NCBI GenBank assembly: GCA_020073265.1
Contig: JAIQFN010000032.1
Location: 1 to 64,000, forward strand
Reading direction: 5' to 3'
DNA: 64,000 nucleotides
Origin: Terriglobia bacterium
GTDB taxonomy: Bacteria; Acidobacteriota; Terriglobia; Bryobacterales; Bryobacteraceae
The position numbers were made by a program, and so were the translations under genes. The notes under the pieces are model-generated. The model did not search any database and had not been told where the DNA came from. It saw only the letters and a program-made list of their open reading frames with translations. How positions within the stretch are numbered: the first letter of the stretch is position 1; each line of letters starts with the position of its first letter. Shown in pieces: positions 26,199-29,334 of this stretch.

Positions 26199-26889
26199 AT
26201 TGAGAGTTTACTCATTTTTGCCGCCAGTCACCAGCCTCACTCCGCCCTCTTCCCTGTCCCTATCAACAACCTCCGCAACCTCCCCGCGTCGCCCGCCCCG
26301 CCCGCCATGCTATTCCGGTTCCGAGGTCACCCATATGTCAGCTACATCCATCGCCCCCGCGGACCGCGCCGCCATCAACCGCGCCAACTCCCAATTCTCC
26401 ACCGGCCCCCGCACCGATTCCGGCAAGCAGCGTTCCTCGCTCAACGCCCTGCGCCACGGCCTCACCGCCGCCTCCGCCGTCCTCCCGTCGGAAGATCCAG
26501 CCGCCTACGACGCCCATCGCCGCGCCTTCTTCGCCGAATACCAGCCCGCCGCTCGCACCGAAACCCAACTCGTCCAGGAACTCGCAGACACCTCCTGGCG
26601 CCTCAACCGCATCCCGCTGCTCGAAGCCGACGTCTTGCACCGCGCCGCCAATCCACCCAACGAACAAGCCGCGATCGACTTCGACATCGTCGACGCCCAT
26701 CGCCTCCTGAACAACCTCTCCATCGAAAGCCAGCGCCTCTCCCGCCAGTTCCAAAAAGCCCTCGACCAGCTCCGCGACATCCAAGCCGACCGCCGCGAGC
26801 GCGAGCGCCGCGACCTCAAAGACGCCGCCGCCCTCCTCGAACTCCACAACCACAAAGGAGTTCCCTTCGACCCCGCCGACCATGGCTTC

Positions 26890-26897
26890 GTTTTTTC
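26890..26897. repeat. Target-site duplication, left copy (GTTTTTTC)
   Basis: GTTTTTTC abuts the left end of the IS1595-type element and is repeated exactly at 29286-29293 abutting the right end. Eight bases is the duplication length known for the IS1595 family. Confidence 0.95.
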
Positions 26898-26923
26898 GGT
26901 GACTATTTACTTGTCTGACCAGA
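26898..26923 (+). repeat. Left terminal inverted repeat of the IS1595-type element
   Basis: Starts with GG and contains TTACTTG and CTGACCAGA, matching the inverted right end (29260-29285) at about 20 of 26 positions. Confidence 0.92.
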
Positions 26924-26937
26924 ACTGTTAAACTCCA

Positions 26938-27642
26938 ATGGATGCAACAGCCGAAAAATTTGGGCCGAAGAACGAAGAACTACGGTTTTGGGACTTCCAG
27001 GAACCTCCCATTGGGAGTGTAATCGCTATGGAATTCAGGCTGGTCTACCGTGGTCCGCTGTCGTCCTCTTCGCGATCTAATTCTAGAGCGACAGAGAAGC
27101 ATCAAATTCGAAAACAACTGTCCCCGCAACTACATCAGTTCTGGAAAGAGCACCCACATCTGAAGCATTTTCTGACAACCGGGGAATTTCTCAGAGGACC
27201 GTCAGAACTGGGCGAGCCGCAAAATCTGGTTACTCGGTTAGCAAAGCAATTTAGCCGAGGCGCGCATACGTTCGTTCCGTTGGTTAGGGAGCAAGACGAT
27301 ACATATTGCTCGCTGAACATTTTGTTCTTGAGGCGTGACGCTCCAGGGAGAATAGTCACTGGTGGCGGAGATTTGGACAATCGACTGAAGACGCTGCTGG
27401 ATGCACTGAAGGTCCCACAAACCACTGACGGCTTACCGGATGTAGTCGAGCAAGGTTTTGATCCAATTTTCTGCTTACTTCAAGACGATTCCCAAATCAC
27501 ATCTCTCAGTGTCATCGCGGATCGAATTCTTGCTCCACTAGAGGCTGCTGAAAGAGAAAAAGATGTTGTGCTAGTGATCCACGTACACGTCTATCGCGGA
27601 ACTAATGCCGCTCAAGTTACCGGACTGCCTGGGAATCTTTAG
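26938..27642 (+). CDS. Passenger protein resembling RusA Holliday-junction resolvase
   Basis: A 234-residue protein starting 40 bp inside the element. Its C-terminal half has [15 protein letters not shown] at 143-157 and LQDDSQI at 181-187, matching the RusA pattern (E. coli RRDLDN, K, then LDDAQV). The metal-binding Asp145 and Asp147, Lys151 and the Asp183/184 pair correspond to RusA Asp70, Asp72, Lys76 and Asp91. It is about twice the length of RusA (120) because of an N-terminal region of about 120 residues without a recognised domain and a gap of about 25 residues between the motifs. Codon use is less G+C-rich than the host. A nuclease or DNA-structure-binding role is inferred from the motif alone. 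Confidence 0.65.
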
Positions 27643-27662
27643 TTGGATGTTATCATGGAGCC

Positions 27663-27836
27663 ATGAAGACAGGCACGGCAGACATGATCGAAGGATCAGC
27701 GGCTTTTGAGCGATTCCGCAGCGCCGTTAAGACCGTGCTTTCGGTTCCCAAGAGTGCGGTTCCGAACCCGTTCTCAAAGCCAAAGCGTAAGAAGTCGGCA
27801 ACAAGAAAGAAGCGGGCAGGAGAGAACGTTCAATGA
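27663..27836 (+). CDS. Small basic passenger protein, 57 residues
   Basis: Encodes [20 protein letters not shown], then [12 protein letters not shown], ending in a strongly basic Lys/Arg tail ([17 protein letters not shown]). The IEG-AF-RF---VK-VLSVPKS pattern resembles short conserved proteins that precede toxin-like or nuclease genes in many bacteria. Its stop overlaps the next start by 4 nt (ATGA at 27833), so the two are translationally coupled. A DNA- or RNA-binding antitoxin-like role is possible but unproven. Confidence 0.65.
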
Positions 27837-28237
27837 CTAACCCGGTGAACTATTTCGACTGGGTATCCAGGCGTGCTAAATGTTCTCCAGGAGTAATGTT
27901 TGAAGCATTAGATGTAGCTCTAAAGCAGGACGTTGAGAGTGTTCAACGGATGCTTCAGGAACGGCATAACTCCAAACTCGTATTTCAGCACGCCAGGGTC
28001 GGAAACGCTGTCGTGGTAACGCGAGAACGGATGGATGCAGCAAATCCCGGTACGGACACAGTACAGTTCTCTCTGACTTCAGCGGGCATAACAGTACAAC
28101 GCGACAACACCATGCGGTTTGTGATTGTCCAGTCGCTCAATACGGAAGGCACATGCAAGATGAACGTGGATGGCCAAGAATTGGAAATATGGCAGGTCTG
28201 CCACAAGGCGCTTGATGGCCTATTTTTTGGGGATTGA
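27833..28237 (+). CDS. Hypothetical passenger protein, 134 residues
   Basis: No family recognised. It begins [19 protein letters not shown] and is a soluble alpha/beta-looking protein with a helical N-terminal half ([18 protein letters not shown]) and a beta-rich remainder ending ALDGLFFGD. It overlaps the preceding small gene by 4 nt and converges with the transposase gene, 37 bp away. Coupling to a small basic protein suggests a two-component unit such as a toxin-antitoxin pair, but no catalytic motif is visible. Confidence 0.6.
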
Positions 28238-28274
28238 CAATCGCTTCCCGCGCCCCTCGCGCTTGGCTTCCTTC

Positions 28275-29237
28275 TCAGTTAAACCACGTTTGCTCGTCCG
28301 CCAGATTGCCAGTGAGACGATCCCAAGTGAGGCGTTTGCCGACGATTTGAGATGCGGCCAATTTGAAGCGGTCGAAATCATCCAGCTTGCGATTGTTGTA
28401 GCGATAGCCTTGCTCGTCCAGATACCGGAACAGGTGAAACGGCTCCACGCTAATGTAGGTGCCGTGCAGACCGCGTTTCAGAAGGCTCCAGAAGTTCTCT
28501 AGGCCATTGGTATGAACGTTCCCTTCGACGTAGGATACTGCGTGGTCAATCACCTGATGCTGGTAGTTGGAATCCAGGGTGTTGTATGATTTCAGCGCAT
28601 CGCTGTAGATCGCGGAACCAGCCTCAACATGCTTCTTGATCTCAGTGTGAAGCGGTTTCCTTCGGACGGTTGGAACCACAGCGGTACGGACCTTGCCGCC
28701 ACGTTCGAGGATGCCCATTACAATGGTCTTGCCAGCGCTGCGCCGCGAACCTTTGGGCGGGTTCTTTTCGGCCCGCTTTACGGCGTGCATGTTGCGGGCC
28801 TTGCCGCCGATGAAAGTCTCGTCCACTTCGACGTGGCCGGAGAACTTCTCAATCGAGCCGGAGTGAAGAGCAAACCTGATGCGATGATCCAAGAACCATG
28901 CTGACTTCTGAGTGATGCCCAAATCGCGGGCGATCTCACAGGAAGAAATTCCATTTCGGCAATTCACGATCATCCACATTGCGGTAAGCCACTTGTCTAG
29001 GCCAATAGGGCTGTCTTCCATGATGGTCCCAACCTTCACGGAGAACTTCGGACGGTCATGCTTCCCGTAGCACTTCCAAACCCGCGCCTTTGCCAGATAG
29101 GTGACCTTTTCGGAGCCGCAGTTCGGGCACTGCACCTTGCCGTCCGGCCAACGGAGATCCGCAAGGAACTTCTGGGAGTTTTCGAGATCGGCGAAGTAGA
29201 GGATTGCTTCTTGAAGGGTCTTGGGTGCGCTTGCCAT
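28275..29237 (-). CDS. IS1595-family (ISXO2-like) transposase
   Basis: A 320-residue transposase. An N-terminal zinc ribbon (CPNCGSEKV then WKCYGKH, residues about 36-60) is followed by a helix-turn-helix-like SSCEIARDLGITQKSAWF segment and the catalytic domain: VEVDETFIGG (first Asp), IYSDALKSY (second Asp) and HTNGLENFWSLLKRGLHGTY, where the third acidic or Asn residue and the Lys-Arg of the family lie. The frame is complete and ends within 1 kb of the passengers. This places the element in IS1595. Confidence 0.96.
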   Translation of the reverse strand: MASAPKTLQEAILYFADLENSQKFLADLRWPDGKVQCPNCGSEKVTYLAKARVWKCYGKHDRPKFSVKVGTIMEDSPIGLDKWLTAMWMIVNCRNGISSCEIARDLGITQKSAWFLDHRIRFALHSGSIEKFSGHVEVDETFIGGKARNMHAVKRAEKNPPKGSRRSAGKTIVMGILERGGKVRTAVVPTVRRKPLHTEIKKHVEAGSAIYSDALKSYNTLDSNYQHQVIDHAVSYVEGNVHTNGLENFWSLLKRGLHGTYISVEPFHLFRYLDEQGYRYNNRKLDDFDRFKLAASQIVGKRLTWDRLTGNLADEQTWFN

Positions 29238-29259
29238 GAAATAAGTATGCGCTAAAACG

Positions 29260-29285
29260 TCTGGTCAGTCAAGTAATTAACTGCC
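29260..29285 (-). repeat. Right terminal inverted repeat of the IS1595-type element
   Basis: Read on the minus strand it starts GGCAGTTAATTACTTG and continues to CTGACCAGA, the partner of 26898-26923. The transposase start codon lies 23 bp inside it, so the repeat probably overlaps the transposase promoter region. Confidence 0.92.
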
Positions 29286-29334
29286 GTTTTTTCAAAAGAC
29301 CAAGTCGAGCGCTTCGCCGAACGCAACCGTCTAC

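Follow-up and report, generated by a model that had tools for sequence, protein, structure and literature searches.

Introduction

What would a RusA-like endonuclease do inside a small insertion sequence (IS)? The question is raised by a 64,000-nt stretch of contig JAIQFN010000032.1 from a Terriglobia bacterium (the window). At positions 26898-29285 an original prediction, made from the sequence alone, had placed an IS1595-type element with a RusA-like gene and a pair of small genes. Our analysis has shown that the element is real and intact, that it is best classed with the 'transporter IS' (tIS) of the IS1595 family, and that the combination of RusA and IS1595 recurs elsewhere. We consider it probable that such elements combine a fixed backbone with a slot for exchangeable cargo, in which RusA is one cargo among others.

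The element and its insertion site

The element is 2388 bp long, with imperfect inverted ends and an exact 8-bp duplication of the target, GTTTTTTC, at 26890-26897 and 29286-29293; all three had been predicted correctly. The left (26898-26923, plus strand) and right (29260-29285, minus strand) terminal inverted repeats agree at 20 of their 26 positions, while loci without a link to IS1595 scored up to 18 in the same scan, so that the ends alone are only moderately clear. Their outer letters, GGTGAC and GGCAGT, together with the length of the duplication, agree with the description of IS1595 elements (8-bp duplication, ends starting with GG).

The element splits a host gene (26335-26897, resuming at 29294, plus strand) in codon 188, and joining the flanks minus one duplication yields a 243-residue frame. 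Thirteen matches to the host protein were found in its own genome, two of them being the halves in the window; the 11 further places make this a multi-copy family of hypothetical proteins. Two paralogues cross the junction unbroken, C49 (78% identity over residues 1-229) and C82 (92% over residues 108-218). Because the frame is restored and paralogues span the junction, we regard this as a genuine insertion, not a chance pair of repeats.

The transposase gene (28275-29237, minus strand) encodes 320 residues and matches PF12762 (DDE_Tnp_IS1595, E = 3.1e-39) and PF12760 (E = 1e-8), both over their cut-offs, as well as NF033547 (E = 3.2e-52, 177.5 bits, cut-off 75). The three cysteines of its zinc ribbon (C37, C40 and C56) are present in 64-65 of 66 aligned transposases, with gaps in the remainder. 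D139 (66/66), D213 (65/66) and N244/E247 (54/66 and 66/66, respectively) are presumably the catalytic D, D and E/N. Annotated relatives are labelled just 'IS1595 family transposase', without a subgroup such as ISNha5, ISPna2 or ISNwi1. The profile matches, the restored host frame and the paralogues bear out the prediction of an intact IS1595-type element with passengers, and the three plus-strand passengers of 234, 57 and 134 residues are found as described, the last two overlapping by 4 nt.

The genome holds a single copy of this element. Two more elements, whose transposases are 73% and 55% identical to its own, carry different cargo. The first sister (L007, 3028-5285) has the 73% identical transposase, a small protein 86% identical over 37 residues and a 328-residue cargo protein in the place of RusA; no exact duplication was found at this locus. 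The other (L008, contig C118), with the duplication AAGATTTC, carries frames that look HicB-like and HicA-like by eye, the HicB-like one having no Pfam match at E ≤ 0.05.

A divergent protein with the RusA fold

The gene for the RusA-fold protein (26938-27642, plus strand) encodes 234 residues if read from its first start. This start overlaps the best -10-like hexamer (26934-26939), residues 1-20 of the structure model are of low confidence, and alignments of relatives begin at residues 5-31, mostly 15-31; for these reasons the true start may be the ATG at 27028, which would give 204 residues.

The window protein alone matched nothing over threshold in Pfam, PHROGs or NCBIfam, and its match to Pfam RusA (PF05866) stayed below the cut-off of 22.8 bits (E = 0.075, 14.1 bits). 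None of 62 aligned relatives matched the Pfam RusA model at E ≤ 0.01, and six and five of the aligned family members touched two RusA PHROGs, at E of 0.12 to 1. The best match of the family profile among sequences in the Protein Data Bank (PDB), an oligoadenylate synthase (E = 0.037), is unrelated and was discarded.

In a profile-profile comparison, the family and a set of 11 canonical RusA proteins, headed by that of E. coli, aligned over 35 columns spanning the active site, with E = 8.8e-6 and a probability of 83%. The alignment pairs D145, D147, N148, K151, D155 and D183/D184 with D70, D72, N73, K76, D80 and D90/D91 of E. coli RusA. In the residue alignment, which covers 62 of 98 family proteins (28 of the 62 IS-linked), D145, D147, K151, D155 and D184 are invariant and N148 is present in 60. 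We take D145, D147, K151 and D184, that is, the D-x-D-N-x-x-K pattern plus a downstream D, to be the catalytic residues of RusA.

The structure model (pLDDT 85, pTM 0.81) is closest to the solved RusA structures 1q8r, 2h8c and 2h8e, with Z of 8.2-8.4 over 107-112 residues and rmsd of 2.7-3.0; the next entry has Z of 4.7. RusA also fills the first three rows of a Foldseek search of the PDB, at E of 0.009-0.018, with no match at E ≤ 0.001. In the viral Foldseek library the best match is unnamed (E = 2.2e-4), and the first named RusA-like protein ranks fourth (E = 1.2e-3), followed by many more.

The predicted resemblance to RusA thus disappeared in sequence-profile searches and held in the profile-profile comparison and the fold. 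Since the latter two hold, the failed sequence searches do not refute it. Judged by predicted fold and motif, the window protein is a divergent member of the RusA fold.

RusA in IS1595 elements of other genomes

We assembled 98 RusA-family loci: the best 80 of 142 relatives on GTDB contigs, 16 viral contigs, the window and one additional locus (L015). BLAST identified an IS1595 transposase in 21 of the 96 loci other than the window and L015, and a transposase model seeded with loci found in this way placed it no more than 1.1 kb from RusA in 20. The remaining one (L071), with the transposase at 2.5 kb and no ends found, was excluded from the linked count; adding the window and L015 gives 22 of 98. 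A weight matrix built from 68 ends added eight loci, several of them cut by contig ends, in which an end of IS1595 type precedes RusA by 10-164 bp or follows it by 116 bp; this brings the linked loci to 30. The matrix scored no position above 15 in the 714 kb of loci that remained once those with an end beside RusA had been moved out. The other 68 loci show no link to IS1595, and related RusA genes also stand free in chromosomes, plasmids and viral contigs.

Ends and exact 8-bp duplications enclose RusA in 17 of the 98 loci (the window, L026, L030, L032, L036, L038, L039, L040, L041, L046, L055, L058, L061, L082, L096, L112 and L117, with L112 and L117 from the viral collection). These scored 19-25 in the end comparison, L030, L046 and L082 at 19, and unlinked loci at most 18; this narrow gap was decided by IS1595-like letters in both ends. 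At L087 and L107 the ends match, with no exact duplication around them. The record titles of the IS/RusA loci name Acidobacteriota, Alphaproteobacteria, one Micavibrio metagenome-assembled genome (MAG) and one MAG called Actinobacteria. In the 22 loci with a nearby transposase, RusA points towards the transposase in 18 and follows it on the same strand in four.

In L026, L032, L082 and L096, of about 1.9 kb, RusA is the sole long cargo. L030 (1168 bp) consists of RusA with ends and the duplication GACGCAAA, and has no transposase. L039 and L041 represent one 4.3-kb RusA element at two sites, 92% identical, with the duplications CTAGTTAG and TACTTTAG; between these copies RusA differs by dN of 0.085 against dS of 0.49 (dN/dS about 0.17), a ratio indicating purifying selection in the single pair measured.

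A survey of 396 genomes of the phylum found 47 transposase places (at most five candidates were scored in genomes with more), 45 of which were inspected with wider flanks, and RusA was present in two of the 45. Five of the genomes have a RusA match, one of them doubtful (G086, E = 7.4e-4, not found by the family model), and in two RusA lies inside an IS1595 element. We estimate that proximity of RusA and an IS1595 transposase by chance would be far below 1%. The prediction would have lost its ground if relatives carried the passengers solely outside such elements; the pairing is instead wider than it had reported.

The cargo slot

Ends could be delimited for 53 elements of this group. They measure 1859-4584 bp, all longer than a bare IS, and 35 have an exact duplication. 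RusA is absent from 37 of them, and since 25 of these have an exact duplication, elements commonly move without it. In a set of 54 cargo frames, all but four from RusA-less elements, Pfam identified DUF3800 (4), N6/N4 methylases (3) and Mrr (2), with single cases of an MvaI/BcnI endonuclease, AIPR, AAA with DUF3226, RelA/SpoT and Bro-N, among others (25 of 29 families among the matches listed). Against PADLOC, the families among the matches listed are methyltransferases.

The most direct comparison is that of L040 (5827-8595) and L179 (2239-5214), in which the transposase, the small gene, both ends and the flanks are alike at 77-87% and the cargo is RusA in one and DUF3800 in the other (Pfam E = 2.8e-5, over the cut-off). 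The two share flanking DNA on both sides, as if the cargo had been swapped in place or the same repeated target had been entered.

Because most sister elements hold other genes in the slot, such as those for restriction-modification, DUF3800 or AIPR, and RusA occurs in two of 45 places, we consider RusA to be cargo and not a gene that transposition is likely to depend on. As in the definition of a tIS, the ends and transposase enclose passengers, and sister elements have other passengers. The passengers would have no function in transposition, except that the small protein may have one.

Both ends contain an inward -35-like box. The left repeat holds TTGTCT (26911-26916), 17 nt from the -10-like TCCAAT (26934-26939), and the right one TTGACT, 17 nt from the -10-like CATACT and directed at the transposase. 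Of 35 transposase ends, 30 have a -10-like hexamer (at least 4/6) 16-18 nt from the -35 of the end, as do 15 of 28 cargo ends; at random positions inside elements, a control unmatched in base composition, the rate is 6.8%. The gene behind the far end is therefore a likely candidate for expression from the putative inward box, and the ends of these IS resemble ready-made promoters for captured genes.

The small proteins

The 57-residue basic protein (27663-27836, plus strand) belongs to a small-protein family that accompanies this IS1595 group and has no match in the family libraries used. A model seeded from 21 frames found 48, 27 of them non-seeds, at E ≤ 1e-3 in 141 loci and the window. For 46 of these frames the locus includes an IS1595 transposase; at the remaining two loci, L033 and L064, RusA adjoins an end of IS1595 type. 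The gene is present in 38 of the 53 delimited elements. In 149 whole genomes the family has 16 places in six genomes, 13 with a transposase within 1.5 kb and three without. One of the three (L227, 561-2047) has the gene between two IS1595-type ends and no transposase in the stretch, possibly a non-autonomous element.

In 39 of the 48 cases the gene is arranged tail to tail with the transposase gene, and in 21 of the 39 the distance between the ends of the two open frames is exactly 3 nt, which makes the stop codons interlock (for example, in L159, L164, L165, L172, L176 and L183). In the window the 134-residue gene separates the two. Between the small-protein genes of the window and L007, changes number 29.4 of 35.7 at synonymous sites versus 23.6 of 120.3 at the others. 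Since the family recurs beside the transposases of the group with any cargo, the 57-residue protein is probably a translated, conserved companion of the IS that belongs to its backbone, and seems to be a regular component of elements of this group. Its basic character and its retention next to the transposase suggest that it may bind DNA during transposition or in controlling it.

Three alphaproteobacterial-type elements (L082, L096 and L112) have another small frame, on the transposase strand after the transposase. It overlaps the transposase stop in L082 and L096 and lies further downstream in L112, and the three share an ERFV-AKE-like pattern by eye.

The 134-residue protein (27833-28237, plus strand, overlapping the 57-residue frame by 4 nt) has a predicted alpha+beta fold. 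It has relatives in four of the 396 phylum genomes, the window's included, and none of the other three shows IS1595-type ends as a pair. Two of the IS and RusA loci searched, the window and L038, have a member of the family, each time adjoining the small-protein gene in the same order. In L038 the genes for RusA, the small protein, the 134-like protein and the transposase overlap by 4, 14 and 4 nt and follow the order of the window; the four-gene unit thus recurs once among these loci. The model of the 134-residue protein, built on two sequences, has frataxin as its best row (Z of 10.1 to 4jpd), XisI-like rows near Z of 6, and no Foldseek match at E ≤ 0.001. We considered it as a passenger of IS1, prompted by an IS1-type transposase near one homolog (L023), and dropped this candidate for lack of convincing ends.

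The original prediction had also described the 57- and 134-residue proteins as a coupled pair. This did not hold up and was rejected, as the 57-residue family goes with many cargos of the IS group and the 134-residue family is found in two loci. A toxin-antitoxin pair that retains the element in the cell would agree with the overlaps of 4 nt in the window and 14 nt in L038, with the shared gene order, and with the HicB- and HicA-like appearance of the frames in L008, with the Pfam result for the former already given. We nevertheless find it highly improbable: the 57-residue family accompanies many cargos, three homologs of the 134-residue protein have no 57-residue match nearby, neither protein matches a toxin or antitoxin family, and the predicted fold of the larger one gives no clear toxin match.

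The role of RusA

Comparison of the elements shows a backbone of two inverted ends and a transposase gene that lies at one of them and reads inward, usually joined by a gene for a small basic protein, mostly tail to tail with the transposase gene. The cargo in the window is the RusA-fold endonuclease and the 134-residue protein. Proteins of the RusA family are metal-dependent dimers that bind four-way or other branched DNA and nick branched DNA. By analogy, the window protein would act in this way through D145, D147, D184 and K151, and would not be needed for transposition as such. The most likely reason for its retention, at about even odds, is an effect on the host or on the DNA of rivals, which also seems to be why the sisters keep their cargo; a part in resolving the element's own junctions, formed in recombination or transposition, appears less likely.

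Phylogenetic trees bear on how often the association formed. In the RusA tree (96 rows, without L069 and L089, which have less than 160 residues), the IS1595 label requires 17 changes, at least nine of them forced by well-supported branches, after eight loci with later-found IS1595 ends had been relabelled from 'no'; the numbers before relabelling were 17 and 10. The label is more clustered than in all 500 shuffles. In the transposase tree (66 rows, 20 with RusA; the fragments L117 and L034 and also L071 left out; bootstrap not settled) the RusA label needs 14 changes, at least nine of them forced. The changes in both trees may be gains or losses.

Several observations weigh against RusA as exchangeable cargo. 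The 17 changes, at least nine of them forced, mean that the association with IS1595 was gained or lost repeatedly, and this could reflect a tie to the biology of IS1595 and not random cargo; the systematic search for IS near RusA covered the IS1595 family. RusA accompanies each of the five alphaproteobacterial-type transposases in the tree, but it was through RusA that these had been identified. As for a defence role of the cargo, the window RusA matches no PADLOC model at E ≤ 0.001. The only two plasmid records found with RusA relatives, from Nitrosococcus (L205) and Nostoc (L206), hint at a defence context, as four of nine neighbouring genes match PADLOC models, including PDC-S35/TIR-like and HNH effector-like ones; there is no background rate for this count, and the match to LmuB is weak (E = 1.1e-4) and that to PD-T4-6 partial.

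The repeated association in two trees is also what would be expected if RusA were an accessory factor of transposition or maintenance that resolves Holliday junctions between copies or in replicative intermediates, the cutting of junctions doing what the Tn3 resolvase does by site-specific recombination. The elements of about 1.9 kb with RusA as their sole long cargo point in the same direction, as do the catalytic residues invariant in 62 of 62 proteins and the purifying selection in one pair. We hold this to be unlikely, given RusA in two of 45 phylum transposase places, exact duplications in 25 of 37 elements without RusA, the nearly identical backbone with RusA swapped for DUF3800 (L040/L179), and L030, a RusA unit that has ends and a duplication and lacks a transposase. 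The prediction had suggested that the passengers could help replication of the transposition intermediate; that the RusA slot holds unrelated genes in most sisters argues against a required role. The same invariance of the catalytic residues, the dN/dS of about 0.17 between two copies and the recurrent association speak against RusA being a neutral hitch-hiker from phages or chromosomes that is heading for decay; we give this little credence, even though relatives stand free in chromosomes, plasmids and viral contigs and 68 of 98 loci are unlinked to IS1595.

We therefore retain the reading of a fixed backbone with RusA as exchangeable cargo. A more far-reaching and tentative proposal is that this IS1595 branch has a two-gene backbone, the transposase and an interlocked small basic protein acting in transposition or its control, together with a promoter-equipped slot in which RusA would be a recurrent, selected cargo. 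Its part there would be either that of a new kind of defence nuclease acting on its own or that of a resolver of junctions, through which recombination would spread the element and exchange its cargo faster. The repeated occurrence of a structure-specific DNA endonuclease in a small IS would link the processing of junctions with the spread of IS or with defence.

Comparison with known systems

Our literature search (RusA with IS1595, passengers, transposition) returned, in the portions of text it covered, no report of RusA in an IS, the founding paper of Siguier (2009) lying outside the search. E. coli RusA itself (DLP12 b0550; 1q8r, 2h8c and 2h8e; PF05866) has the same fold and the same pattern of D70, D72, K76 and D91. 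The window protein differs from it in length, about 200-230 residues against 120, and in not being recognised by the Pfam model; the extra length is made up by the part preceding residue 31 and by stretches that separate the conserved strands and helices.

In Planktothrix rubescens, the mcyT-mcyD spacer contains a 1194-bp insertion that bears RusA and has no transposase, with the RusA given as 85 residues beside a 227-residue protein (PMC4766695); L030 (1168 bp) is like it in size and content. Thaumarchaeal casposons, as far as the accessible text describes them, also bear a nuclease, but have another transposition enzyme and a nuclease of another family (PMC6563490). The Merlin DNA transposons of eukaryotes have the DDE_Tnp_IS1595 domain, duplications of 8-9 bp and a terminal GG in common with the window element, and no RusA passenger is described for them in the available part of the source, which lists seven IS1595 groups (PMC8101967).

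The closest counterparts are the tIS, a term defined in the text seen of PMC9330008. The available excerpt of PMC11891212 names regulators, methyltransferases and resistance genes as their passengers and makes no mention of a small-protein gene in the backbone. Its example from the IS1595 family, ISNha5 with a regulator, likewise combines an IS1595 transposase and an 8-bp duplication with passengers that are not needed for movement (PMC11891212).

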